Under the pieces are notes generated by a model that was given only the letters and a program-made list of their open reading frames with translations, did not search any database and had not been told where the DNA came from. Positions 3,743 to 64,000 of a stretch of DNA of 64,000 nucleotides are shown in pieces. This stretch comes from Heterostelium album PN500 (taxonomy: Eukaryota; Evosea; Eumycetozoa; Acytosteliales; Acytosteliaceae). Numbering within the stretch: the first letter of the stretch is position 1; each line of letters opens with the position of its first letter. The stretch lies in the NCBI RefSeq assembly GCF_000004825.1, contig NW_008805076.1:62001-126000 (forward strand). Direction: 5' to 3'. Made by a program: the position numbers and the translations under genes.

Positions 3743-4580
3743 ATGTATAGAATTTATTCTATGTCATTGGTATGGATTGTACTAGTTTGTTCGTTGATGA
3801 TCGCCGGATACAACGGTGGCGTTGGTGTCTATGCCCAGCAGACCAACATCACCTGTACCCAACCATCGACTTCATTCTATAGTCTCTCCTACCAATTGAT
3901 CAACGGTACAACCATTAACTTTGACCAGTTCAAGGGTAAGGTTGTTATGTTGCTCAATACCGCATCGTTCTGAGGCATGACCTTGGAAACCTTTACTGGT
4001 AAATATCTTTTTTTAATGTCTCTCTTTATAAATGAATGAACTTTAATAATTTACATATCATATATGTATAGGTTGTAACGACCTCGTAGAGAAGTTTGGA
4101 ACCACCGAGTTTGTCATCCTCGGTTTCCCATGTGCCCAATTCATGAATCAATCACCAGGATCAGGTGACGAAATTCTACTTACCCTCAAATACATTAGAC
4201 CTGGTAATGGTTTTCAACCAGCATTCCCAATGTTTGCCAAAGTAAATAACAACAATTCTTTATAAAATTAATGAAACTTAATATTAATGCATTTCCAACC
4301 AAACTTTCTCTACGATCCTCTTCAGTCTAATGTAAATGGTGATCCATCAACTGTAAATCCAGTGTTCAATTGGTTGAAATCGGGTTGCGGTCCAATCACA
4401 CAAACGATTTTAGAGACAAGTTTGATTAGCTGGACTCCAGTAATGACCAACGATATTACATGGAATTTCGAGAAGTTCCTCGTAAGCAAGACCGGTCAAT
4501 TGTACAAGAGATACTCTCCACAAACTCTACCAGAGCTTTTGGCTGAGGATATCTATAACTTGATCGACGCAGACTATTAA
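3743..4580 (+). CDS. Secreted selenocysteine glutathione peroxidase, copy 1
   Basis: Reduces hydroperoxides with glutathione or another thiol; predicted extracellular or secretory. Exons 3743-3998, 4072-4241, 4326-4580 give 226 residues if the in-frame TGA at 3971-3973 is read as selenocysteine (residue 77). The context NTASF-U-GMT equals the animal GPx active site (NVASx-U-G). The frame continues through two good introns into the GFPCAQF block (Gln near 108) and ITWNFEKFLV (Trp-188, Asn-189), completing the Sec/Gln/Trp/Asn tetrad. The long LKYIRP loop and TWNFEKFL block resemble animal GPx1/GPx3; length equals human GPX3 as I recall it. An N-terminal hydrophobic signal peptide of about 32 residues ends near YAQQ. 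A SECIS-like element lies 123 bases past the stop. The alternative, a nonsense mutation, is unlikely because copy 2 shares the TGA. Confidence 0.85.
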
Positions 4581-4689
4581 TCGACCAATCTAACATTAGT
4601 AGGTAGTTTATCGATTTACAGGGTCGATGCTTGTTCGATTATCATCAGTGGATTGGCAAAACACCACCGACACGATCTATCTTGTTCAC

Positions 4690-4762
4690 ACTAGAATCTG
4701 TAATGACAGGGTACTCATTAAATTTTTAATAATCTGGATACCCTTGAAACCTAATCTTATTC
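4690..4762 (+). promoter_or_regulatory. Candidate SECIS element in the 3' UTR of glutathione peroxidase copy 1
   Basis: SECIS hallmarks occur in order: ATGA quartet strand at 4703-4706, helix 4708-4713 (AGGGTA) pairing perfectly with 4739-4744 (TACCCT), unpaired AAA at 4720-4722 on the 5' side of the apical loop, and the closing TGA at 4745-4747. GAAT before and ATTC after can form the lower helix. The same block is strongly conserved after copy 2 while the surrounding UTR has diverged. Seen by eye, not folded by software. Confidence 0.72.
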
Positions 4763-5786
4763 AAATAGTGTTTTCAATTGTCTTGTCGTGGAATATGACA
4801 TGTTTTCCGTCCACCCAATGAAGTCAACAACATTAATTTAGTACTAATCGATAAATCTCCTATAATAAACCTCTAATAAATAATATCTTAATTTAAAAAA
4901 TTATATATATAGTATAAAATCAATCTAGATTTAATTAAATCAAGAATATAATATTAAACTTATGATTGCAAATAATAATGTTTTTTTATTTATTAACAAC
5001 ACGAATATGTGGTGTTTATTTATTTATTTGTTTGTGTGTTAAAACATATTTGGGAAATCATTGATGGGCGGTCAACAAATTTGATATTTTAAAATATTAT
5101 TCATAATCTAAAGTTGTATACCTTTGTTTTTAAAGAGAATATCATTAAAATAAATAAAACATCAAACACCTCCTTTATATATATATATATATATGGAAAA
5201 GTATACTTTTAATTCATATTAACAATAACAGTGGTACGAATGGATGCATAGGGTACTGTATTTGAACTTTAGAAACTTCGATATCTATTTCGTTTGCAGA
5301 TCTAATGTTTAATCTAATCAAATCAAAAAAAGAAGGTGGCTGCAGTGTGGGAATACTACTATCTTATATTGTTTTTGGTCGATTGTTTGAAAACGAAATA
5401 ATGAACTGTGTTTACAAACAATTAATTAATAAAACCACTAGACAAATAATATGTATTGCACCAACAAAAAAAGAACGTTGTTCTATCACAAAAAAAGGTT
5501 TGATTTTTTTAAACTTTTCTTAAAATTTGTTAAAAGAATTATGACACCATGAAAAGATATTTTCAAATCCGCCGATTTTGGAGTTTTTTTCTTCATTTAT
5601 TAATGTTGATGATACTTAAAAAGGTTTTTACAAAAATAAAAAAATATCATTCAATCAATCAATCATAAATATTTATGATTGCATTGTATTTATTATTATA
5701 ATTTATAACCTATTAGAAAAAAAAAGAGATAGAAAGAAGACTGAGATAGATAGATAATTTATTTTTTATATACCACTACCATTGAA
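4763..5786. other. Spacer between the two glutathione peroxidase genes
   Basis: AT-rich. Contains a (TA)n microsatellite near 5178-5195. A 72-codon open frame at 5305-5523 has no coding-like features and is not called. The last 100 bases before copy 2 are its presumed promoter; no clear motif seen. Confidence 0.5.
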
Positions 5787-6632
5787 ATGTTTAGAATATC
5801 CGTTTATTCTATATCATTGGTATGGGTGGTCGTGTTGATGTTATCTTTGGGCAACATCAATAGTCAGTTAGGTGTCGACGCTGGTTTTACCAATGTCAGT
5901 TGTACACAACCATCGACATCGTTCTACGACCTCTCCTACCAATTGATAAACGGTACTACCATCACCTTTGACCAGTTCAGAGGAAAGGTAGTACTTCTCC
6001 TCAATACCGCTACCTTTTGAGGAATGACTTATATGTCATTTACAGGTAAACACATAAATTTGAATCATAGCAACATTTCTCTATATTAACACTGAAATCC
6101 AAATTCATTAATACATTTATAGGTTGTAATGAACTTGTAGAAAAGTATGGAACCGAAGAATTTGCTATTCTTGGTTTCCCATGTTCCCAATTTATGAATC
6201 AAGCACCTGGATCCGATCAAGAATTCCTTCTCACTTTGAAGTATGTTAGACCAGGAGACAACTTTGTACCAAACTTTTTATTATTTACCAAGGTAAGTTT
6301 TTCAAGGAAAGAAATAACTATTTTATTTATTTTAAATTATTAATTTTTCTTTTATTATTACATTTATTTTTTAGTCCAATGTAAATGGAGATCCATCTCA
6401 AATTAGTCCAGTTTTCCAATGGTTAAGATCTGGATGTGGTGCCACTTCACAGACTATCATCGATACCAGTTTGATAAGTTGGACTCCAGTGTTGACCAAT
6501 GACATTACATGGAATTTCGAGAAGTTCCTTGTATCCAAGACTGGTCAATTGGTTAGAAGATACTCACCAGAGACATTCCCACAACTTTTGGCAGAGGATA
6601 TTCACGAACTAATTGAATCCGACTGGGCTTAG
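5787..6632 (+). CDS. Secreted selenocysteine glutathione peroxidase, copy 2
   Basis: Tandem paralogue of the gene at 3743, same strand, same two intron positions and phases. Exons 5787-6045, 6123-6292, 6375-6632 give 228 residues with the TGA at 6018-6020 read as selenocysteine (residue 78, NTATF-U-GMT). The Gln of GFPCSQF and the Trp-Asn of ITWNF are kept. The segment LKYVRP..NFVPNF is close to the loop of tetrameric animal GPx1/GPx3. Signal peptide at residues 1 to about 32. No ER-retention signal at the C-terminus (ESDW). The stop is TAG, and a SECIS-like element follows 114 bases later. The two proteins differ at many positions while active-site residues and the TGA are kept, which points to selection on both. 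Confidence 0.86.
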
Positions 6633-6732
6633 GTCAACAAAAAAAGTAGATTGTAATTTTTGTTCAACTTTAATGTTGGTTCGATTATCGATAGGAACTT
6701 GGTAATTCTACAAGCAAGATCTATCTTGTTTT

Positions 6733-6808
6733 CACTTGAATCTGTAATGACAGGGTATCTATTAAATTTTTCAAAAATCTGGATACTCTTGAAACCTAAT
6801 CTTATTCA
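6733..6808 (+). promoter_or_regulatory. Candidate SECIS element in the 3' UTR of glutathione peroxidase copy 2
   Basis: ATGA at 6747-6750, an 8-bp helix of 6752-6759 (AGGGTATC) with 6782-6789 (GATACTCT) including one G-U pair, AAA at 6764-6766 in the apical loop, TGA at 6790-6792. TTGAAT upstream pairs with ATTCAG downstream for the lower helix. Compared with copy 1, a C-to-T change in the 3' helix strand keeps pairing as G-U, which supports the structure. Confidence 0.74.
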
Positions 6809-7122
6809 GAGTGATCTCAATTATCTAGTTTGGAAATTAACAAGTAACTATTAATAATTGTTCAAGCATTGATTTTGTCAAAAACTATGATTACTTTCAA
6901 TCAAAAAATACTCATATATTTATATTTATACATATTAAATAAATATGTAAAACAATTTTTATTCAAATAGTTTAGTTTTAGTTTATATAAAAACTCTGTA
7001 CAAATATATTTCATTTTATTTGATATTATTTTTTTTCTTTTGTTTGTTTAAGAAAATTGTGAAGGATGATTATTAATAATATTATTATTGGTTGTTGGTT
7101 GTTATTATTAAAACTTAATTAA
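6809..7122. other. Convergent spacer
   Basis: AT-rich 3' flanks of two convergent genes with A/T runs and short TTATTA repeats. Nothing else seen. Confidence 0.5.
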
Positions 7123-19174: not shown

Positions 19175-21474
19175 TTATAAAAGTAACTTCAATGGATTTT
19201 CGATGTAATCCTTGAAACGTTGTAACCATTCAGCACCTACAGCACCATCGATAACACGGTGATCACATGACAAAGTGACAGAGAGGATGGTAGCGGTTTC
19301 GTATGGCAATTCACCTTCCTTTGGCTTCTCGGCTGGCACCAAACGTGACTCAGTGGTTCCGATGGCCAAGATAGCGGCTTGTGGTGGGTTAATGACGGCA
19401 GAGAAACTCTTGATACCAAACATACCCAAGTTGGAAATGGTAAAAGTACCGGATTGGAAGTCCTGTGGTTGGAGCTTACCCTTCTTGGCCTTGTCGGCCA
19501 TCTCACGCACCTGGTTGGCAATGGTTGCCAATCCCTTCTTGTCAGAGTCACGTACCAACGGTGTGAACAAACCGATGTCGGTGTTGACGGCAACGTTGAT
19601 ATCGACATTGTGGAAACGACGAACGGCACTGGTCATCCAAGTGCTATTTACAGTGGGGACGTCCTTCAAAGCGGCAGAGGCAGCCTTGATAATAAAGTCA
19701 TTGACCGACAACTTGTATTTTCCGTCGGCTTGACCGTTCAACTCGGTACGCACCTTGAGAAGCTTGTCGACACGACACTCCATGGTGAGGTAGTAATGTG
19801 GGATGGTTTGCTTGGATTCAGTGAGACGCGCAGCAGTGACCTTACGAATATTCGAGTGTGGAATGTCTGTGTATTCACCGACTTGTTCGGTGGCGACGGC
19901 TGGACGTGTGGCGGTGGTAGTGGCGGCAGCAGCTGGAGCGACTTCCTCGACAGCCTTTGGTTGATAGTTCAAAACGTCAGCCTTTACAATACGTTGATTT
20001 GGTCCGGTTCCAGAGACATCGGCAATATTGACACCCTTCTCCTTGGCAACGAATCTGGCAGCTGGTGATGAGAAAATTCTTCCACCTTCGTTGTTTTGTT
20101 GTCTTGGTGCAGATGATGATGAGCTTGATGGTGTCGATGTTTGTTGTGGAGCAGCTGATTCGGCTGGTGCTGATTCAGCTGGAGCACTGGTGCTAGTACC
20201 AACAGTGTAATCATTGAATTTATCGATATCTTCTTTCTTTGCAGCTAAAATACAAACTGGCTATAAACATGTTTTGAATAATAATAAACATTGTAAATAA
20301 CTCTGTGATTTGTTGTTGTAGAAATATAGATGTCAAGTATTTCAAACTACTTACGCTGTCAATGTTAACACCAGAGGTACCGGCTGGAACTAAAATCTTG
20401 GCAACATAACCTGATTCCAAACATTCGAAATCCATAGTAGCCTTGTCAGTCTCGACTTGAGCAATGATATCACCAACTTTAACTTGATCTCCAACCTTCT
20501 TGTTCCACTTGGCAAGACCACCAGTCTCCATTGATGGTGAAAGTGCTGGCATACCAACAACGATATGTTTTGGATCTAAAATAGATAGATATTTTTATTA
20601 ATACGATCAATCTTTGATTATTTCTAATTTTTTTTTATGTTATACTTACAAGTCTTTGATGAGGCAGCTGGTTTTGGTGCGGCGGCAGCTGGCTTTGGTG
20701 CTTCCTTTGGTGCGGCAGCAGCAGCTGGAGCTGGAGCAGCAGCGGCGGCGGCTGGAGCAGCAGAAGCTGAATAGTCTTTGAACTTCTCGATATCTTCCTT
20801 CTTCTTTGCGAAAATAGCAATCAACTGTTTGAACAATTGTTGTTGTTGTTAGATCATACACATCTGACAAAGATACTTTTAATCTTTAGTTTTAAATGAA
20901 TGACTTACACTATTGATTGGAATACCTTTGGTACCTTCTGGAGCAATGATCTTTGCGAGATAACCTGATTCCAAACATTCGAAATCCATGGTTGCCTTAT
21001 CGGTTTCGATTTGAGCAATGATATCACCAACTTTAATTTGATCTCCAACCTTCTTATTCCAAGCTACAATATTACCCTCTGTCATCGATGGTGACAATGC
21101 TGGCATATCAATCTTAATATGTGGTGGATCTAAAAAAAATTATAAAGTAAATTGATTAATTAAATATAAATATGAAATTTCATCTTAAATTTTAATCAAT
21201 CATTTCATTGTGATGAATAGTATGATTGATCGATTGCATAGATATACCTACATTGAGTGGAGTAGAATCTTGATGATGGAACATGATATGAATGTACTTG
21301 TGGTGCAACCATCTTTAATGAATAGTTAAGATATGATGCATTGTTGTTGTTGTTGATGGTTGGGCAGTTGTTAACGGCAAACAATGCAGTTCTACCAACA
21401 CCAGTGGTGTAATTACGTACACCATTTACCAATGTTTGTTGCTTCTTTACTAATCTAATTGAATGTCTCAACAT
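19175..21474 (-). CDS. pdhC: Pyruvate dehydrogenase E2, dihydrolipoamide acetyltransferase (mitochondrial)
   Basis: Core of the pyruvate dehydrogenase complex: transfers acetyl groups to CoA in the mitochondrial matrix. Exons 21252-21474, 20909-21129, 20650-20824, 20355-20575, 19175-20260 give 641 residues. A basic targeting sequence ([12 protein letters not shown]) starts at 21474; an upstream in-frame ATG is ignored because it would put acidic/neutral residues before it. Two lipoyl domains each carry ETDKATMDF with the lipoylated Lys. Ala/Pro-rich linkers separate them from a peripheral-subunit-binding domain ([13 protein letters not shown]) and the catalytic domain with DHRVIDG near the C-terminus. 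Each lipoyl domain is its own exon with matching intron phases, fitting internal duplication. Confidence 0.95.
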
Positions 21475-23111: not shown

Positions 23112-26100
23112 TTAGATTAACATGACACCGAGTGAAAATATCGATAAAATAATGCTAATTGATAGGTTGTTTGATGACGATAGATCACCAGTAGTGCTTG
23201 TGCCAGGGGTTGAAGTTGTAGATGAGGTGGTTGTGGTGCTTGTACCAGTAGTTGAAGTTGTAGATGAGGTACTTGTGCTTGTGTCAGTGGTAGTGTTGAG
23301 AGTCGGTTCAGAACAATCAAGACCTGTATATCCTTTATCACATTTACAAATGGCATTAGTATAGTTACATTGACCATGAGATGAACAATCATTCAAACAA
23401 GGTCTTGTATAGTAAAATAGTGTGTCGTTGTTGAATGTTTCTTGATCTGAAACTGAAACATAAACTGAAACAAGATTGTTTTTGGAGTCGGCTTCTCCCG
23501 ATGGTGTGATGGTGCATATTAAATTGTTGGTGTTGATTTGTGTCACAGCACATTCTTCATTATTGATTTTCAAAACAAGGTCGATATTAATAAAATTGTC
23601 ACCAGTGATTGTGAAATTAACTGGTTGATTTTTAAAGTATAGCTTTGGATTGATATCTGTGATTGTTGGTGCTAGATATCCAGATGAGTATTTGTTTGAT
23701 GTTGGATTATAGACAACAAAAGATCCTGCACCAGATGATACAATACAAATAAGAGTTGCTGGGAAATTCTCTTTACTTTCAGATTCACATTCTAATTGTT
23801 CTCCATTAAGATAGATTGGAGTGGAAATAAGGAAGGTTCCAACAACTGTAATATTTCCTCCAGTCACTGGTATAACTGATACTGATGTGATATTCGATTT
23901 AAGATTAAGATTTAATGATACATCAGCTTGTTTGGAATCAACGAGAATAGTATAATTGTTGTTTAATATTGTTGTTGGAAGTTGAGCAACTATTTCGCTA
24001 TCGCTAACCGAAGTAAAGATTGTATCTACATTGACATTTCCGAGGTCAGTCATCTTAAGAAGAAAAGCTGAAGATCCAAAGTTAGTTCCTGAAATTGTAA
24101 TTACAATTGCATTATTATCGTCTTGTGTGTAGGAAGTGATAGTAGGGCTGTTATACTGGAAAGTAAGAGTATTGGAATAGACACCACGAAGTTGACTGAA
24201 CATACGAATTCTTCTATCTGTGAGAATACCTTGAGGTGTTGAGAGTTGGCATAAATTTCCCGAGATAACTTGACACGCTACTGAAATATCACCAAAGATA
24301 GTTGTTAAATATTGTTCGTTGTTTGACGTGAAGAAATCACCTTTGATAACAAAATATACACCGGCGTATGTATCAATCGATTCTTGACCAACTGAGGTTA
24401 AATATGGAACAAGGATTACATTTGTACTAAATACACTTGAACTAGAAACAAGAACTTGTAAATTGGTCTCAGTTGAACCTGCTGGTACTGTAAAGTTTAG
24501 TGATTTGGCAGTTGAGTTGAATGAAATTGGTTGAGTATTCCATGTGATTGATAAGTATTGTGATGGAACCATGTCGGAGGCATTGAATGAGATGATGTTG
24601 TTTATCTGTGTGTAGGTTGGTCCGAAAGATGGTTTGATGAAAGTGAGCAGATTAAATTGATCGGAACTATATCCATTGAATGTCACTTGAGCCTGACAAG
24701 TTTGAAGTGGTGTAACTGTCTGTTTTCCATCGAGAGCTAAAGAACAACCAATCGAATTGACAGAGTTGAACTTCATATCGGTACAATTGATTCCACAAAC
24801 TGTAATTTGGTAGTTTGCTGTGTTGACAAAGTTATTTCCGGTTATGGTAATATTAGAAACACCCACATAAGGGATTGATGGTGTACCTCCAACGATATAT
24901 GGTTTGGGAACAGAACAGTCGTCAGCGAGCCAACCGGAATTGCAAACGCATCCACCAGAGATACATTGACCGTGACCTGAGCATTGATTTTCACATAGAC
25001 TTGTATATTTCATTGTGTACATCCTTGAAGAGGATGACAGAACACTGACAACCTTGAGATCTTTATCGACGCCAACAGCATAGGAATAGGAATTTAGATT
25101 TTGACTAACTGGCTCTACAGGTTGAATACTCACAAATGTTGGTTTCAATCCAGTGTCAGATATTGTTACAACACCAAGATTTCCTTGTTTATCAACAACG
25201 GAAATGAATATTTGTCGGTAATCGATGTCATAGTTCATGTTAATGCATCTGCCGACGTCACTGGTGAGTGGAAATACGTTCTGTTGACCGGTTGTCACAT
25301 TGAATCTTTCGAGATACGCACCATTACTGTCGGTAGTACAAGTATAGACCATGTAGTTATAGGCAAAAGCTGTCATCGAAGCGGTTTTCGAATGGCTAAG
25401 ATAGAGTAAGGTAGAGGCAGGTCCTACATAATTTAAATAGATTAATCCACCATATGATAAATAGAGAACTTTGCTCACTCTATCATAAACCATAAAGTCA
25501 ATCTCAGCGTCAAGCGGCACTGGAACATCGTACATATAAGTCGAACCTGGAGAGTAGTATTGGCCAGCGGTATTGTAGTTCCAGATAGTACCAGTTATTA
25601 TCATCCTTAACAGATTGCTATGATAAAATGTCAATTCCGAGATGTATTCATTCTTGTCGTTGACCACCCATCGTTGGATCATATTTTTTTTCGTCAATAT
25701 GCCAGTGGTATCATATTGCTGGGAGATCGAAGCAGAACCTGTCATGTCCTGAACGAAGATGCAAGCGAGTTCAGAAACCGTTGAGGAACTATTCTCTGAT
25801 TTCAAAGGCAGTGCAATGGCCATGTTGGTACCGCCATTGGCAGTGGTGGCGAGCGAACTAATGATGGCATCGTTACTCAGTGGATCGAGATTGTCAGAGT
25901 ACCTAAAGACAGTGGATCTCTGGTTGTTCGACATGATCATAAAATTCCTTTGGCCAGGCATATTCATGTCGGTTGCAAACTCGCCTCTAGCTATTCCATT
26001 GATTGGTACACCACCAACCTCTAACAACAACTTGGTGTATTGTGTTCCAAACACTTGTGCATTGGTATGGTCAACCAAAAGAAGTTGAATAATTACAAAG

Positions 26101-26147
26101 TATATAAATAATAGTGTATAAATAAATTTATTCAAATTCATTTTCAT
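23112..26147 (-). CDS. GPI-anchored surface protein with EGF-like and IPT/TIG domains
   Basis: Single exon, 1,011 residues. A signal peptide (about residues 1-30, hydrophobic, ending in TNAQ) is followed by a roughly 370-residue beta-rich, propeller-like region. Then comes an EGF-like module (CSGHGQCISGGCVC), several IPT/TIG immunoglobulin-like domains (pattern PxIxG...ITITGxNF), a second EGF-like module (CSSHGQCNYTNAICKC), a Thr/Ser-rich stalk and a C-terminal hydrophobic tail after SSNN, typical of GPI attachment. The architecture matches the dictyostelid TIG/EGF families that include cell-adhesion and allorecognition proteins, although Tgr proteins usually have a transmembrane segment. The specific ligand is unknown. 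Many N-glycosylation sites support an extracellular site. Confidence 0.82.
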   Translation of the reverse strand: MKMNLNKFIYTLLFIYFVIIQLLLVDHTNAQVFGTQYTKLLLEVGGVPINGIARGEFATDMNMPGQRNFMIMSNNQRSTVFRYSDNLDPLSNDAIISSLATTANGGTNMAIALPLKSENSSSTVSELACIFVQDMTGSASISQQYDTTGILTKKNMIQRWVVNDKNEYISELTFYHSNLLRMIITGTIWNYNTAGQYYSPGSTYMYDVPVPLDAEIDFMVYDRVSKVLYLSYGGLIYLNYVGPASTLLYLSHSKTASMTAFAYNYMVYTCTTDSNGAYLERFNVTTGQQNVFPLTSDVGRCINMNYDIDYRQIFISVVDKQGNLGVVTISDTGLKPTFVSIQPVEPVSQNLNSYSYAVGVDKDLKVVSVLSSSSRMYTMKYTSLCENQCSGHGQCISGGCVCNSGWLADDCSVPKPYIVGGTPSIPYVGVSNITITGNNFVNTANYQITVCGINCTDMKFNSVNSIGCSLALDGKQTVTPLQTCQAQVTFNGYSSDQFNLLTFIKPSFGPTYTQINNIISFNASDMVPSQYLSITWNTQPISFNSTAKSLNFTVPAGSTETNLQVLVSSSSVFSTNVILVPYLTSVGQESIDTYAGVYFVIKGDFFTSNNEQYLTTIFGDISVACQVISGNLCQLSTPQGILTDRRIRMFSQLRGVYSNTLTFQYNSPTITSYTQDDNNAIVITISGTNFGSSAFLLKMTDLGNVNVDTIFTSVSDSEIVAQLPTTILNNNYTILVDSKQADVSLNLNLKSNITSVSVIPVTGGNITVVGTFLISTPIYLNGEQLECESESKENFPATLICIVSSGAGSFVVYNPTSNKYSSGYLAPTITDINPKLYFKNQPVNFTITGDNFINIDLVLKINNEECAVTQINTNNLICTITPSGEADSKNNLVSVYVSVSDQETFNNDTLFYYTRPCLNDCSSHGQCNYTNAICKCDKGYTGLDCSEPTLNTTTDTSTSTSSTTSTTGTSTTTTSSTTSTPGTSTTGDLSSSNNLSISIILSIFSLGVMLI

Positions 26148-26974
26148 GATTTTATTTTAAAGTTACTATTAATAGTAATTGACTTGTCGAATTTGATAAT
26201 AAGGAAAGTTCATCTAAAAAAAAAATAAAATCGTGTTGATGGGAATTTTGTCCAATTTCATAGTTGCCTATTCAACGAAAAAACAAAGTTTGATCAAACA
26301 ACAGAGACACAAGAAAGCAAAGATTAAAATAACAATGATCGAGATTTTTTGTTATTTTGTTTTAAAAAAATATCTTTTGAATTTATTTAAAATACAACTA
26401 TAACGTTATGTCTTTATCTTTTTTCCAATTTAATTGTTTACCAAAGAAACAAATATAAATTTAATCTTTTATTTTTTCTAACACGAATGTTTAATCGATT
26501 TTTTTTTTTATCTTTAAAAAATTTTTAAACGCTATTCTCTGTGTCGAACGTGCAAATCTAACCTATATAATAGAATGAGTGTATCTAAATATTGTTGTAG
26601 ATATGGTATAGAATTATGAATGGGCAACACTAATGAATATCATCAATATTTAAAACCGATTATAGAGTTAGAGTTCACTTAGTGTTAAAGGGTAAGTGCA
26701 TTATATTATGATCTTCATTGTTAATTTGAAATATTAAATACTAATAAATATAAAATATATATAGATCAGAATTAGTTCACTTTCCTCTTTTAGATGGTAA
26801 CAAATTACAAAGTTTTATATTCAACCGCCACAAGGTAAAGGTGAATGAGTGCATCCAAAAAAAAAAAGAGAGAAACTCGAAATACTTTATTTGACTGTAT
26901 GTTATTATAGTTAAGGAATGAATACAATTTATACAACTACAACTAATCTCCAACATATTTTATATGAACTATCT
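26148..26974. other. Spacer upstream of the TIG/EGF gene
   Basis: AT-rich, with no gene, RNA or repeat recognised. The first 100 bases probably hold the promoter of the minus-strand gene. Confidence 0.45.
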
Positions 26975-27667: not shown

Positions 27668-29429
27668 ATGAATGAAAACAAAGAACATAGATTTGTTAAT
27701 ATTCCAATATTACTTCTTATTTTTATAATAAATAGAATTCCTGATAATTTAGATAGAATTTGTTGGAGTTTAGTTTGTAAGAGATGGTTTGATAATAGAG
27801 ATAAATATTTATTGTTCAATACCGATGAAATCAGTTTGATGTCAAATTATAATAATTATAATAGTGCGGCACCATTTCATCTACAATCATACAAATCAAT
27901 CTATTTGAAATCAATAGATAAGAAGAGAGATTGTATATTCAATATTGGTTTAGGTTATCCTTATTGTCCCAAATATGACTATTCAATTGAATATCGTAAG
28001 TTTTTTTAAAAAAAGATTGTTTAATTATTTAAAATACTAATGTATATATAATATAGGAGCATTTAAAAAAATTGATAGTATTCCATCGAATGTAACTACT
28101 GTTATTTTAGATGACAATTTTCTTAGTAATTCCCGACATAATTTAATCGATTCCGAACATCTTTCTAAGCTGTTATCTCAATCTCCAAATGTAAAGGAAT
28201 TGCAAAATTGTAAAACTCTCAAATACAAATTACCAGAAGAAATTCAAACACTTTCTATCCATTCAAGGTCTTTTGAAGAGTTGACAGCCAACAACATTCC
28301 ACGTGGAATCAAAAATATTACTTTGAAGGTTAACCATTTCAAACAACAGATTGGTAGAGGTGTTCTTCCAGAAGGTCTTGAAAGTATTTGCTTTGGTAGT
28401 GAATATAGAATAAAGATAGAACCAGATGTACTGCCATCCTCATTGAAACATCTGTATCTTGAGAGTGATCTTACCAAACTCAAAAAACAATCACTTCCAG
28501 CCAACCTCGAAGTTCTACAGCTCCCTAAAGAAAATTCCATCAATAAGTTGTTGTTACCAAACACTCTTCATACAATATTAGAGATATCATCCTGCTATAT
28601 ACCTACGTTAATGAAATTTCCTCATCTAACAACTCTGTCATTCTATGACAGTAGTTCCTCATTGGATATCAATGAGCTTCCACCAAACTTAACCAACCTG
28701 TCATTCTCAGGTGATTATCAACTTAAATGTGCAATACCACCAACAATTACACATTTGGATATTAAAAATTGTAGATTTGAGAGTAGTGAAATATTACCAA
28801 AGACCTCAAACTACAGATTTGAAATTCTAATATCGCCAAAGTGCCCAGAACTACAAATGACAAATGTTCACATTTCTAAATTGGCACTTAATAGTCTCAT
28901 TGATATCACACCTGGAATGATTACACCGGGAATCGAATCATTGGATCTATCAATGACCACCAGTAAAATCTACGTTGGATCAATACCAGAGTCAGTGAAA
29001 CACTTGTCATTAAATATGACTACTGAGAATTATCATAATGTCATCCCGGAAACAGTTGAAACACTCGAGTTGCACAGAACCGATTCACTAACAGCTAACA
29101 GCATTCCAAAAACATTGAAAACCTTGATCATACCGTTTTCAAAATCAACACTTCAGTTCATTCCTCGACCACTTCCACCAAACATCATCTTTTGTGAAAC
29201 CAATCTCCAACACGCATCTCATATAAGAAAACTTGATCACCAATATTATCTATTGTTTGGCAAACCAATCGAAGAAGTCGATGGAGAGATTACTAGTGAA
29301 CAACCAGCTTTTCATTTCACAACAGCAATCTTTCATGAATCTGAATTCATTGATCTACTTTCACGTGAATCAAAGAAACCAAACCCATTTAACTACTTTA
29401 ACCTAAATCAATTTTTTATAAATAAATAA
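27668..29429 (+). CDS. FNIP-repeat protein with an F-box-like N-terminus, copy 1
   Basis: Exons 27668-27995 and 28057-29429, 566 residues. The head (about 10-60: LLLIFIINRIPDNLDRICWS then LVCKRWFDNRDKY) has the helical pattern of F-box-like modules in dictyostelid FNIP proteins. It is followed by about ten leucine-rich FNIP repeats (LPxSLxxLxLxxxF). A conserved C-terminus ends in FHFTTAIFHESEFIDLLSRE. FNIP proteins are a large dictyostelid-specific family of unknown function; an adaptor role in ubiquitin ligases is an inference from the F-box-like head. Start 27668 matches the MNE start of copy 2; an upstream in-frame ATG at 27623 would add 15 hydrophobic residues and is less likely. Confidence 0.88.
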
Positions 29430-29807: not shown

Positions 29808-31528
29808 AATAAAGAACATCTACTTGTTAATCTTCCATTATTACTTCTTAGTCATATTATAAATAGAATACCTGATAATTTAGATAGAATATGTTGGAGT
29901 TTAGTTTGTAAGAGATGGTTTGATAATAGAGATAAATATATTTGGTTCAACACCGATGAAATCAGTTTGATGTCAAATAATAATAGTACTTCATCATTTC
30001 ATTTACAATCATATAAATCAATCTATTTGAAATCGATAGGTAAAAGAGAATGTACATTAGGTATTGGTTCAATCACTCTTTATAATCCAAAATATGACTA
30101 TTCAATTGATAATCGTAAGTTTGTTTGTCTTTTAAATAAAATAAAAAAAGATAGATATATATTAATTATTTAAACTTCATTTTAGAATCATTTCATAAAC
30201 TTAAAAGTATTCCATCGAATGTAACTACTGTTATTTTAAAAGATGCACCAAGACTTAATCCTCTTTATAAAAATGTTTTCAATGATTCTCCGCCTGATTC
30301 CGAACATCTTTGTAGGTTGTTATTACAATCTCCAAATGTAAAGGAATTGAGATACTGTCGAACACTCAAATACAGATTGCCAGATTCCATTCAAAAACTA
30401 TCTATCTGCTTGGCGTATGGTGAAAAGATGACAGCCAACAACATTCCACGTCAAGTTCAAAGTATTTCTTTAAATTGCAACTTTTTCGATCGACCATTTA
30501 CTAGAGATGTTTCTGGTAATCAGAATCATCAAGTGATAGAACCAGGTGTACTACCAACCTCACTGAAACATCTGTATCTGGGATATGGTAGTATTCAACT
30601 CCACCCAGAATCACTGCCAGCCAACCTAGAAGTTCTACAGATAGGAAGAGTGGCACCGCCAACCGGGTTGTTATTACCAAACACTCTTCATACAATACTA
30701 GAGATATCATCGTGTTGGACTCCAATGTTAATGACACTACCTCATCTAACTACTCTGTCACTACGTGATAGTACTCGCTCATTGGTCATCAATGAACTTC
30801 CACCAACTTTGACCGACCTGTCATTTTCAGGTGATTATCAACTTAACTTTGAAATGCCCCCGACTATCACACATTTGGATCTTAGCAATTGTAGATTCGA
30901 GTACTATCAAATATTCCCAGTGACATCAAACTACCGACTTGAAGTTCTAACGACAACAAAGTTACCAAAACAACAACAGACAAACGTTCACATTTCAAAA
31001 TTGGTATTTCAATGTCTTACTCTAGGAACACTCACACCTGGAATAATTCCAGCCGGAATCGAATCATTGGATCTATCGATGAGCATAAACAACATCTCGG
31101 TTGGATCCATACCAGAGTCAGTGAAACACTTGTCATTAAATATGGTATATGAAAGTTATCAGGATGTCATTCCGGAAACAGTTGAAACACTTCAGTTGCA
31201 CAGAACCGATTCACTAACAACCAACATTATTCCAAAAACATTGAAAACCTTGATCATACCGTTTTCAAAATCAACACTTCAGTTCATTCCTCGACCACTT
31301 CCACCAAAAATCATCTTTCGTGAAACCGATCTCCAACACGCATCTCACATAAGAAAACTTGATCACCAATATTATCTATTGTTTGGCAAACCAATGGAGG
31401 AATTCAAAGGAATGTTTACCAGTGAAAGACAACCAGCTTTTCATTTCACAACAGCAATCTTTCATGAATCTAAATTCATTGATCTACTTTCACGCCACGC
31501 CAATCAATTTAAAACATTCGACAAATAA
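29796..31528 (+). CDS. FNIP-repeat protein with an F-box-like N-terminus, copy 2
   Basis: Tandem paralogue of the gene at 27668, with the same intron position and phase. Exons 29796-30114 and 30186-31528, 553 residues. The F-box-like head is nearly identical (IPDNLDRICWSLVCKRWFDN). FNIP repeats fill exon 2, and the C-terminus FHFTTAIFHESKFIDLLSR is shared. The start at 29796 (MNEKNKEH) aligns with copy 1; the in-frame ATG at 29781 lies at the centre of the palindrome and was probably created by it. Copy 2 differs from copy 1 by indels inside the repeats, as is common for this family. Confidence 0.88.
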
Positions 31529-61859: not shown

Positions 61860-64000
61860 TTATGCTATTGTATTCATTTGAATACCAAGTTTTAATTTTA
61901 TATTTCTCTTATTTTTTATAATGAAAATGGTAGCTACTGATAGAATTGCTATACCAACAACACCACATACCACCGCAATGGTAATGATCACCCAAGTTCT
62001 TGAGGATTTACCAGAGATTGAACAATCTTTGTTTTCGGTTTGAATTAGGAGTGAAAAATCAGGATCTATACTACAGGTCTGACATTGTGGTAAATGGATT
62101 CCAATGTAGGTGACACCGTCTTGAGTGCTGTTGATAACTTCATTTCTTGAATAGGTCGATCTTCCATCAGAGAGTGAGAATGGTAAGAACTTTCCATAAA
62201 ATGCCAATCCATTCTTGATGATCTTGAAATATTTAACGGAATCATCAAGAGTTCCAGTGGCAATTGGTGACTTTGAATCACAACCATAATTGTCTTCCTC
62301 TTCTATTTTTGTGTTGAAAACCACTCTCAAAGTGTTTAAGTTTGATGAATACACCCATCCATTGATATCAACTGAGAGTTTAAGTCCATTTGGTGGAATT
62401 GTAAATTGTTGGTTGGCAAATGTCAAATCTCTTGATTTGTTTGAATGTTGAATCAGTGCCAGAATATTTACTTTACTATCGGTTTGAATGGAATATCTTA
62501 AATAAGTTACATCATCCAAGCTATAATTAAACGTTGTCCATTCTGAAGTTATTAATTCATTGACAATGATTCCACTTGGATCTAACTCTTGAACTCCAAC
62601 CATATTGAAATTGAAATCATAACCATTCGCTATTATTGATGTAACTGGAGTAGTTTGATTTAGATTGATATGGCCACCATCAAAAATTTCTAGAGAATGT
62701 ATTTAAAAAAAATCATATTAATTTAACCAATTTAGTATAAATATTAAATTTTTAAAAGAAATATTAATTACTTACTTAATTCACAATATGAACCATAGAA
62801 ACCAGTAGAACAAATACATTTGGTATTAATACATCGACCATTTTCATTACATCTATCATTGAAACCAAAATCATTAGGAATATCGATAGCTTCAACAAAT
62901 AGACGGGGCATAACGAATTCAAAGTTATTCAGAATAATCTTAACGTCCAAGAGACCACTGGAAATCATACCAATTTGACAATCCCAATAAGTTGCATTGA
63001 TTGGGCCTCCAACTATTCCTGATATCATCAATTTACCCACTTTATATGTACCAAAATTTCCACTTGCAATTTTCCTCCATCTGAATTTATTTTACTATAT
63101 GATGAAACTAATGGGAAACCTATAAAAAAGAAAGTTGAATTTTATATTAATATTAATTTTTTAATATTTAATTTAACAACTTGCTTGTAGTTTTGGCTAA
63201 AAAGGGATTATTAAATAAGTATGATCTCAGAGAAACGTTAAAAATATTGGCGATCAGAGGATGTAGTAAAGTGGCTGTACAAATCATATATGTACTGTTG
63301 AAATAGTTTATGTCACAAACTCCATTATTTATGATGGTAATTGTATGATTTGGAAAGGATTGATTGAACTGTCCAAATAATTCCAATTTGAAATTGGTCA
63401 AATTGTAAGAGGTAACCGAAGTTTGAGATATATAGGTCACTACATTGATTAGTTTGTTAGTTAGTAGAGTATAAAACGATGTGACATCAATTTTACATAC
63501 TATCTGATACCCAAGAAATATTAAATACTATATTTCTTGATGTAGAGAAATAAAGTGTTGTCTGACCAGTTGGCACTGTAGGTTTATAAGAAAACAATAT
63601 GTTTGGATTTATGACTTGAAGTGTTGACGGTGAAAAATCACCAGGTGCTCTATATCCTAGAAGTTTTCCCTTTAGAATACAAGTTGAATTTGAATATCCC
63701 AACATAAAAAATTTTGAAAATAACTGTGGTTCTAAAGTATTAAAAAATTAATAACACCTTTAAAAATATGATTTAGACCAAACATACCACAATCTACACC
63801 AGGTTTGGTTTTTACTACTTTCGGTGGTAATTGAATATAACTTGGTAAATTTCCTTTTAAACAATAAATACAATCTGGTAGAGTGGTGATAGATGTATTT
63901 CTAAAACTTAAAAGATTTGCTGTGCAAAAAGAATCTGGAATTTTTCCTGTAATAGAGGGATTGTTTTCAAAATCTATTCTATTGGGAGTAAGATTTGAAT
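61860..64000 (-). CDS. ComC-like membrane protein with LRR and EGF-like parts (5' end cut; possibly broken)
   Basis: The gene runs off the right edge. Exons seen, in transcript order: 63788-64000 (LRR-like: NPSITGKIPDSFC, ITTLPDCIYC), 63501-63731, about 63184-63439, 62776-63119, 61860-62689. An EGF-like module (CNENGRCINTKCICSTGFYG) ends the fourth exon. The last exon holds a roughly 200-residue beta-rich domain of the ComC type, a transmembrane segment (WVIITIAVVCGVVGIAILSV) and a short basic tail. In the fourth exon the frame changes near 63060 (upstream KLQVE, downstream SGNFGTYKVG), and the donor after KTTSK near 63184 is poor. So this may be a decaying gene or may carry a sequence error. 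ComC-type proteins are cell-surface proteins of dictyostelids. Confidence 0.72.

Follow-up and report, generated by a model that had tools for sequence, protein, structure and literature searches.

According to the available parts of the survey of Trenz 2021 (PMC8614756), glutathione peroxidases (GPx) outside animals carry Cys, those of fungi, bacteria and plants being mainly monomeric; selenocysteine (Sec) entered the family early in animals, choanoflagellates being without it, and the classical form of the enzyme is found from Cnidaria on and in animals only. Dictyostelium is never mentioned in those parts. For D. discoideum, the accessible text of Lobanov 2007 (PMC2375036) gives five selenoproteins, namely SPS2, SelK, Sep15, MSP and a deiodinase-like protein, with no GPx among them, a number repeated in 2026 in the part at hand of PMC13063481; the same text of Lobanov 2007 also describes selenoprotein GPx from algae and diatoms (Ostreococcus, Thalassiosira), so that the presence of Sec in a GPx from outside animals has precedents. 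In the following, we consider a 64,000-nucleotide stretch of contig NW_008805076.1 of Heterostelium album PN500 (positions 62,001 to 126,000, hereafter the window, with positions counted from its first letter), in which two tandem duplicates, gene 1 and gene 2, are each predicted to encode a selenocysteine GPx with the classical (dimer/tetramer type) architecture, probably secreted and most likely dictyostelid, with Sec inserted through a selenocysteine insertion sequence (SECIS) element in the 3′ untranslated region (3′UTR). We put the probability of this reading, which is drawn from sequence, at about 0.9.

Other sources on the family touch on this lineage at the margin. As far as their available sections go, PMC9925728 is animal-centred, with some amoebozoan sequences added for context, and PMC7730656 includes D. 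discoideum and finds GPX in almost every species it covers, naming Dictyostelium twice but not in connection with GPx; dictyostelid GPx are unmentioned in the corresponding sections of PMC7409322, PMC4561486, PMC6155587 and PMC6262372. In the open-access literature no account of a GPx selenoprotein from a dictyostelid was found, subscription papers lying largely outside the search, so that absence is unproven. What would be new, within that scope, is a classical-type GPx with Sec in the dictyostelid lineage, the family itself being known and the lineage unexpected.

The initial annotation had placed a TGA at the catalytic site of both genes and had followed the reading frame over two introns into intact GFPCxQF and ITWNF blocks, and both points were borne out by splice models built by combining GT[AG] donors with AG acceptors within selected stretches round the two introns, with exactly one internal stop demanded. 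A single three-exon GT-AG solution was obtained for each gene, in both cases with one in-frame TGA, and both blocks are intact in the two proteins. Gene 1, on the forward strand like gene 2, consists of exon 1 (3743-3998, codons 1-85 and the first base of codon 86), intron 1 (3999-4071, GT-AG, phase 1), exon 2 (4072-4241, with GFPCAQF and the LKYIRPG block), intron 2 (4242-4325, GT-AG, phase 0) and exon 3 (4326-4580, with the classical insert and WNFEKFL, ending in the stop TAA at 4578-4580); its product is 226 residues long, and the in-frame TGA at 3971-3973, in the context NTASF-TGA-GMT, would be Sec77. In gene 2, exon 1 (5787-6045), intron 1 (6046-6122, GT-AG, phase 1), exon 2 (6123-6292, with GFPCSQF and the LKYVRPG block), intron 2 (6293-6374, GT-AG, phase 0) and exon 3 (6375-6632, with the classical insert and WNFEKFL, ending in TAG at 6630-6632) yield a product of 228 residues, with the proposed Sec78 at 6018-6020 in the context NTATF-TGA-GMT. 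The introns, of 73-84 nucleotides, lie at matching codon positions in the two genes. Both proteins match the Pfam family PF00255 (GSHPx) well above its cut-off of 27 bits (100.7 and 99.8 bits), and the TGA, codon 77 in gene 1 and codon 78 in gene 2, falls exactly at the GPx catalytic position. Taking the GPx catalytic tetrad as Sec/Cys, Gln, Trp and Asn, as defined in the available part of PMC9925728, the TGA occupies the first position, and Q109, W189 and N190 (gene 2 numbering) are invariant across the five aligned rows.

That the reading frame is maintained as protein on both sides of the TGA is indicated by the divergence between the two copies. The two products agree at 161 of 225 aligned residues (72%), and Nei-Gojobori counting on gene 1 versus gene 2 gives 1.33 synonymous (dS) and 0.22 non-synonymous (dN) substitutions per site, with an overall dN/dS of 0.16 and synonymous sites near saturation; since dS is so high, the duplication that gave rise to the pair is old. 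The ratio is 0.28 over the 75 codons before the TGA and 0.12 over the 149 codons after it. At a dS of 1.33, the latter value implies purifying selection on the protein part encoded after the TGA, a pattern that a stop or pseudogene reading fails to explain. The in-frame UGA falls where aligned homologues have Sec or Cys, and coding conservation continues after it.

A second line of evidence comes from the 3′UTRs. Local alignment of 330 nucleotides per gene against shuffles yields a single long conserved block, 4671-4786 versus 6715-6829, with 100 of 117 columns identical and a score of 70 (shuffle maxima of 14 with n=200 and 13 with n=500), and it is this block that holds a SECIS-like element in each gene. 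The scores are at the shuffle null in the UTR after the block, and no conservation beyond chance is found in the 400 nucleotides upstream, in intron 1 or in intron 2. In gene 1 the element spans 4688-4771 on the forward strand, with helix I arms at 4688-4697 and 4759-4762/4766-4771 (AAA bulge), UGUA (4699-4702), the AUGA core (4703-4706), AAA (4720-4722) and GA (4746-4747); in gene 2 it spans 6732-6814 on the same strand, with helix I arms at 6732-6741 and 6804-6808/6810-6814 (G bulge) and UGUA, AUGA, AAA and GA at 6743-6746, 6747-6750, 6764-6766 and 6791-6792, respectively. Both elements therefore have UGUA-AUGA, an apical AAA 13 nucleotides after AUGA and a 3′ GA, and the distance from TGA to AUGA in the spliced mRNA is closely similar (575 nucleotides in gene 1, 570 in gene 2). 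With hand-named arms, all 10 pairs of helix I are standard in either gene, two of them being compensatory double changes (A-U to U-A), and helix II pairs at 9 of 10 positions in gene 1 and at all 10 in gene 2. The conserved block reaches some 15-17 nucleotides past the SECIS helices on each side, beyond the needs of a SECIS fold, and a further 17-nucleotide stretch is common to both UTRs before 4671/6715 (score 12, equalled in 1 of 500 shuffles).

All SECIS elements identified in Dictyostelium, as presented in the accessible text of Lobanov 2007 (PMC2375036), show UGUA ahead of the core, an AAA that is left unpaired and, past the core, a U-U mismatch, the deiodinase-like one having mismatches further off. 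The UGUA-AUGA and the apical AAA are common to these D. discoideum elements and to those of the gene pair; the mismatch after the core differs, being U-U in the former and, by eye, C-U in the latter, and this is one of several points that tell against reading the two elements as SECIS. Our own descriptor (AUGA, AA at 10-14 nucleotides, GA, at least 6 arm pairs) is weak when taken alone, as it returns 35 candidates from the 925 ATGA sites on both strands of the window, among which the element of gene 2 ranks 4 and that of gene 1 ranks 10 by energy. A scan with Rfam recovers no SECIS, whether the gathering score is applied or E values as high as 10 are admitted; folding the RNA of the elements without constraints gives results that do not surpass those of shuffles (z from -1.18 to +0.90); and the window has 6 copies of the octamer TGTAATGA for 6.48 expected by chance, i.e. 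without enrichment. On the other side, UGUA precedes AUGA in none of the 13 other candidates among the 15 listed, and, when each UTR (300 nucleotides) is dinucleotide-shuffled 2000 times, any SECIS candidate appears in 63 (gene 1) and 74 (gene 2) of the shuffles, and one as stable as the real element in 15 (gene 1) and 1 (gene 2). The search for a SECIS that the initial annotation had proposed has thus produced a conserved descriptor candidate in each 3′UTR and no Rfam match, and its claim of two tandem selenocysteine GPx genes gains backing from purifying selection on either side of the TGA together with this conserved SECIS-like element per 3′UTR. No tRNA was found by ARAGORN in the 64-kb window.

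Can the TGA be read in any other way? If it were a true stop, the genes would be truncated or decayed and what is seen would be a conserved remnant picked out by eye, a view to which the lack of an Rfam SECIS match lends itself; however, 149 post-TGA codons at a dN/dS of 0.12 with synonymous sites near saturation, the lack of any second in-frame stop, splice sites that are intact in both copies, a hit on exactly the catalytic codon in both genes and the presence of the conserved block in the 3′UTRs make it very improbable. Even less credence is due to the idea that the TGA is spliced out and a selenium-free protein made. Frame-keeping GT-AG pairs that skip the TGA do exist (57 + 7 in gene 1, 70 + 11 in gene 2), and for gene 1 the plausible donor GTAAGG at 3936, joined to the normal acceptor, would lead to a protein of 205 residues, but these pairs are unscored dinucleotides, each of which by construction loses the catalytic residue. 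Moreover, gene 2 has, by eye, no GT at the site matching the gene 1 donor at 3936, and its nearest donor, at 5988, pairs, among the pairs listed, with acceptors at 6070, 6145 and 6241 and not with the normal one, while the stretch that would be skipped, GKVVxLLNTAxF, is nearly unchanged between the copies. General reassignment of TGA in this genome, e.g. to Cys or Trp, with selenium uninvolved, would be workable inasmuch as Cys at the catalytic position would function too, yet Cys is otherwise encoded by TGT or TGC throughout the two genes (9 codons of 9), the 20 long frames surveyed (9816 codons) are without TGA as a sense codon, and a SECIS-like element would be left without a role; this is the explanation we find hardest to credit. 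The survey covered 20 of the 21 long stop-bounded frames, that at 19349-20068, which overlaps another, being left out; these 20 frames end in TAA (16), TAG (2) and TGA (2), although some may end inside introns, so that these are not necessarily true stops. Both TGA codons are, on the sum of this evidence, very probably selenocysteine codons.

As to the type of GPx encoded, a search of the PDB with the gene 2 protein, with Cys in place of Sec, matched 42 distinct sequences, of which GPX6, GPX1, GPX2, bovine GPX1, GPX5 and GPX3, in this order, lead at 126.6-140.6 bits, all other listed chains scoring at most 94.6. Identity to these classical GPx (PDB 2f8a, 2he3, 1gp1, 2r37, 2i3y and 7fc2) is 37-44%. 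Two classical motifs, LKYxRPG and WxP[VM]xxxD[IV]xWNFEKF, defined after the alignment was inspected, occur together in 8 of 8 rows, i.e. the six mammalian classical ones and the gene pair, and in neither any of the 6 monomeric PDB rows nor any of 123 bacterial or viral-contig GPx, the latter comprising 80 of 583 confirmed prokaryote-genome stretches and all 43 confirmed from viral contigs. In 119 of these 123 a catalytic Cys is recognized by pattern, the remaining 4 being unmatched by it. Within the two blocks, the gene pair and mammalian classical GPx are identical at 17-22 of 42 residues, including LKYxRPG and WxPV or WxPM, and the segment that holds the resolving Cys of monomeric Cys-GPx is replaced by LKYxRPG in both proteins. 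The spacing from FPC to WNF is 84 in gene 2 and 58-63 in 103 of the 123 comparison sequences from bacteria and viral contigs. Five other loci of that set (L063, L066, L070, L091 and L094) have a comparably long insert ahead of WNF, with a spacing of 82-86 and without the classical motifs; these inserts are apparently independent insertions. An animal-type classical architecture of the gene pair is, at the level of sequence blocks, thus supported. The initial annotation had called the genes GPx3-like, their length and LKYxRP...TWNFEKFL layout being likened to vertebrate plasma GPx; the classical animal-type architecture by blocks stands, and kinship with GPX3 in particular is not established.

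The trees cover the gene pair, PDB sequences and bacterial or viral-contig loci, the animal classical rows being mammalian. In the first tree (46 rows: the gene pair, 12 PDB sequences and 32 of the 123 loci), the gene pair joins classical GPx at 100/98 when all columns are used, and it lies, on a long stem, outside the mammalian classical set, i.e. outside both GPX1/2 and GPX3/5/6, at 98/87. The approximately unbiased (AU) test, run on 42 rows including 28 loci with groups named after the first tree had been seen, rejects neither the pair with GPX3/5/6 alone (p 0.29) nor the pair with GPX1/2 alone (p 0.24). A grouping with GPX4/7/8 was discarded (AU p 0.005, all columns), and the label of GPx3 orthologue has been set aside as unproven, the best tree placing the pair outside GPX3/5/6 with an AU p of 0.29. 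In the same tree of 46 rows, three viral-contig GPx (L105, L107 and L120) form a small clade on one branch with yeast HYR1 and PDB 6vpd.

The protein core speaks less clearly and lends no support to a classical affiliation. When alignment columns 112-128 and 153-187, i.e. the two blocks, are left out, the pair joins classical GPx in only 4% of bootstrap trees, as scored relative to the six monomeric rows from the PDB; GPX7/8 then become the partners of the mammalian classical set (97/92). The core is neutral in the AU test, as a tree constrained to unite the pair with the classical set is worse by 0.29 log units (p 0.50). In raw identity, two bacterial GPx (62-65 of 142-145 residues) and yeast HYR1 (60-61 of 130; 61 and 60) come nearer to it than the mammalian classical enzymes do (48-56 of 125-143; for GPX1, 48 and 51 of 125), with GPX4 at 50-54 of 135. 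Since the grouping is lost without the blocks, it is they that carry the classical signal. The same observations could mean that a monomeric-type Sec-GPx of this lineage gained classical-type blocks independently, or by recombination: its core would then be expected nearer to the yeast and the two bacterial GPx, with no classical grouping once the blocks are removed, as is seen, and inserts of similar length do occur at the same place in some bacterial and viral-contig GPx. Such a gain is made unlikely by the 17-22 of 42 residues that the pair has in common with mammalian classical GPx across the two separate blocks, and by the lack of either motif in the bacterial inserts of similar length (0/123). 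Because two separate insertions share specific residues, the blocks are read as homologous to those of classical GPx, the core being undecided.

Both proteins begin with a hydrophobic stretch, with 15-residue hydropathy maxima of 2.57 (gene 1) and 2.33 (gene 2). In gene 1 a probable signal peptide covers approximately residues 1-31, with cleavage between VYA and QQ, and in gene 2 approximately residues 1-26 or 1-32, the cleavage sites being placed by eye; sequons are found at 35, 54 and 111 in gene 1, and at 36 and 55 in gene 2. Given the hydrophobic N-terminus, the sequons and the possible VYA/Q site of gene 1, both proteins are probably secreted. Of the earlier statement that they carry a signal peptide and are secreted, the hydrophobic N-terminal stretch is thus present in both, and secretion is suggested by hydropathy, sequons and a cleavage site judged by eye. 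In a working mechanism, modelled on the GPx family, the UGA at codon 77/78 would be decoded as Sec under the direction of the 3′UTR SECIS element, and the enzyme would enter the secretory pathway to act outside the cell or in endomembrane compartments, where H2O2 or organic hydroperoxides may be reduced via the Sec-Gln-Trp-Asn tetrad. In particular, the peroxide would oxidize the Sec selenolate, and the resulting selenenic acid would be reduced by thiols (GSH, i.e. glutathione, or a redoxin), as the resolving Cys of monomeric Cys-GPx is absent. Sec insertion itself, secretion, oligomeric state, reductant and substrate are all elements that we infer. Each protein has a Cys ten residues past the proposed Sec (codon 87 in gene 1, codon 88 in gene 2), one that is absent from the aligned mammalian classical GPx; it could serve as an alternative resolving residue. 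Of five positions that contact GSH in GPX1, mapped by eye, gene 2 keeps 3 and gene 1 keeps 2 plus a Lys for Arg; GPX3, too, keeps only some of them.

The surroundings of the genes were examined by a Pfam scan of 20 of the 21 long frames of the window, which returned two FNIP-repeat proteins and one ComC_SSD protein. The two FNIP-repeat frames adjoin each other on the forward strand (28041-29426 and 30155-31525), and a frame of 1014 residues on the reverse strand (23115-26156) has TIG and teneurin-like EGF domains and is of cell-surface type. We take FNIP and ComC_SSD to be dictyostelid marks; a dictyostelid origin of the genes agrees with these neighbours, whose presence in the same window also speaks against animal contamination, which was considered as a source of the two genes and discarded.

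How a classical-type Sec-GPx came to be in this lineage allows for two answers, neither of which we would hold as firmly as the reading of the genes themselves. The pair may derive from horizontal transfer, with an animal or some other lineage as donor, and not from vertical descent, as might be suspected from the one survey in which, in its available parts, classical GPx are animal-specific (PMC8614756), and from the D. discoideum selenoproteome as reported, which is without a GPx. Against this, the best tree sets the pair apart from the mammalian classical GPx (98/87), with a long stem, although placements within that set are not rejected by the AU test; such a position renders a recent vertebrate donor unlikely. 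An older transfer is possible, transfer as such being somewhat less likely than not. A tentative proposal, to which we would give somewhat less than an even chance, is that the classical oligomer-type Sec-GPx predates the split between animals and Amoebozoa, disappeared from D. discoideum, and persists in the present genome as two duplicated, secreted enzymes that might act in the extracellular matrix or in phagosomes. A dictyostelid pair combining Sec with the classical type bears directly on the model of Trenz 2021, as set out in the available parts of PMC8614756, and a pre-animal origin, if true, would overturn the view that Sec and the classical form both arose within Metazoa. The gene pair also makes the origin of the plasma-type GPx testable in a tractable amoeba, and genes of this kind are of the sort that a standard gene caller is expected to split at the TGA.

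Set beside the systems described so far, the gene pair differs from the D. discoideum selenoproteome, as listed by Lobanov 2007, in that the latter contains no GPx, and resembles the Sec-GPx of algae and diatoms (Ostreococcus, Thalassiosira), which are also GPx selenoproteins of protists. The monomeric GPx (GPX4, GPX7/8, yeast HYR1 and the bacterial enzymes) belong to the same GSHPx family but are without both classical motifs. The closest likeness is to the classical enzymes, GPX1/2 and GPX3/5/6, in which both classical blocks and the tetrad residues align with those of the gene pair and the segment in question has no resolving Cys. Within this group the similarities are, by eye, divided: with GPX3/5/6 the pair shares the lack of the 4-residue DATA/DPFS insert and two Cys residues, with GPX1/2 it has RYS in common and, with GPX1, NDxxWNF.

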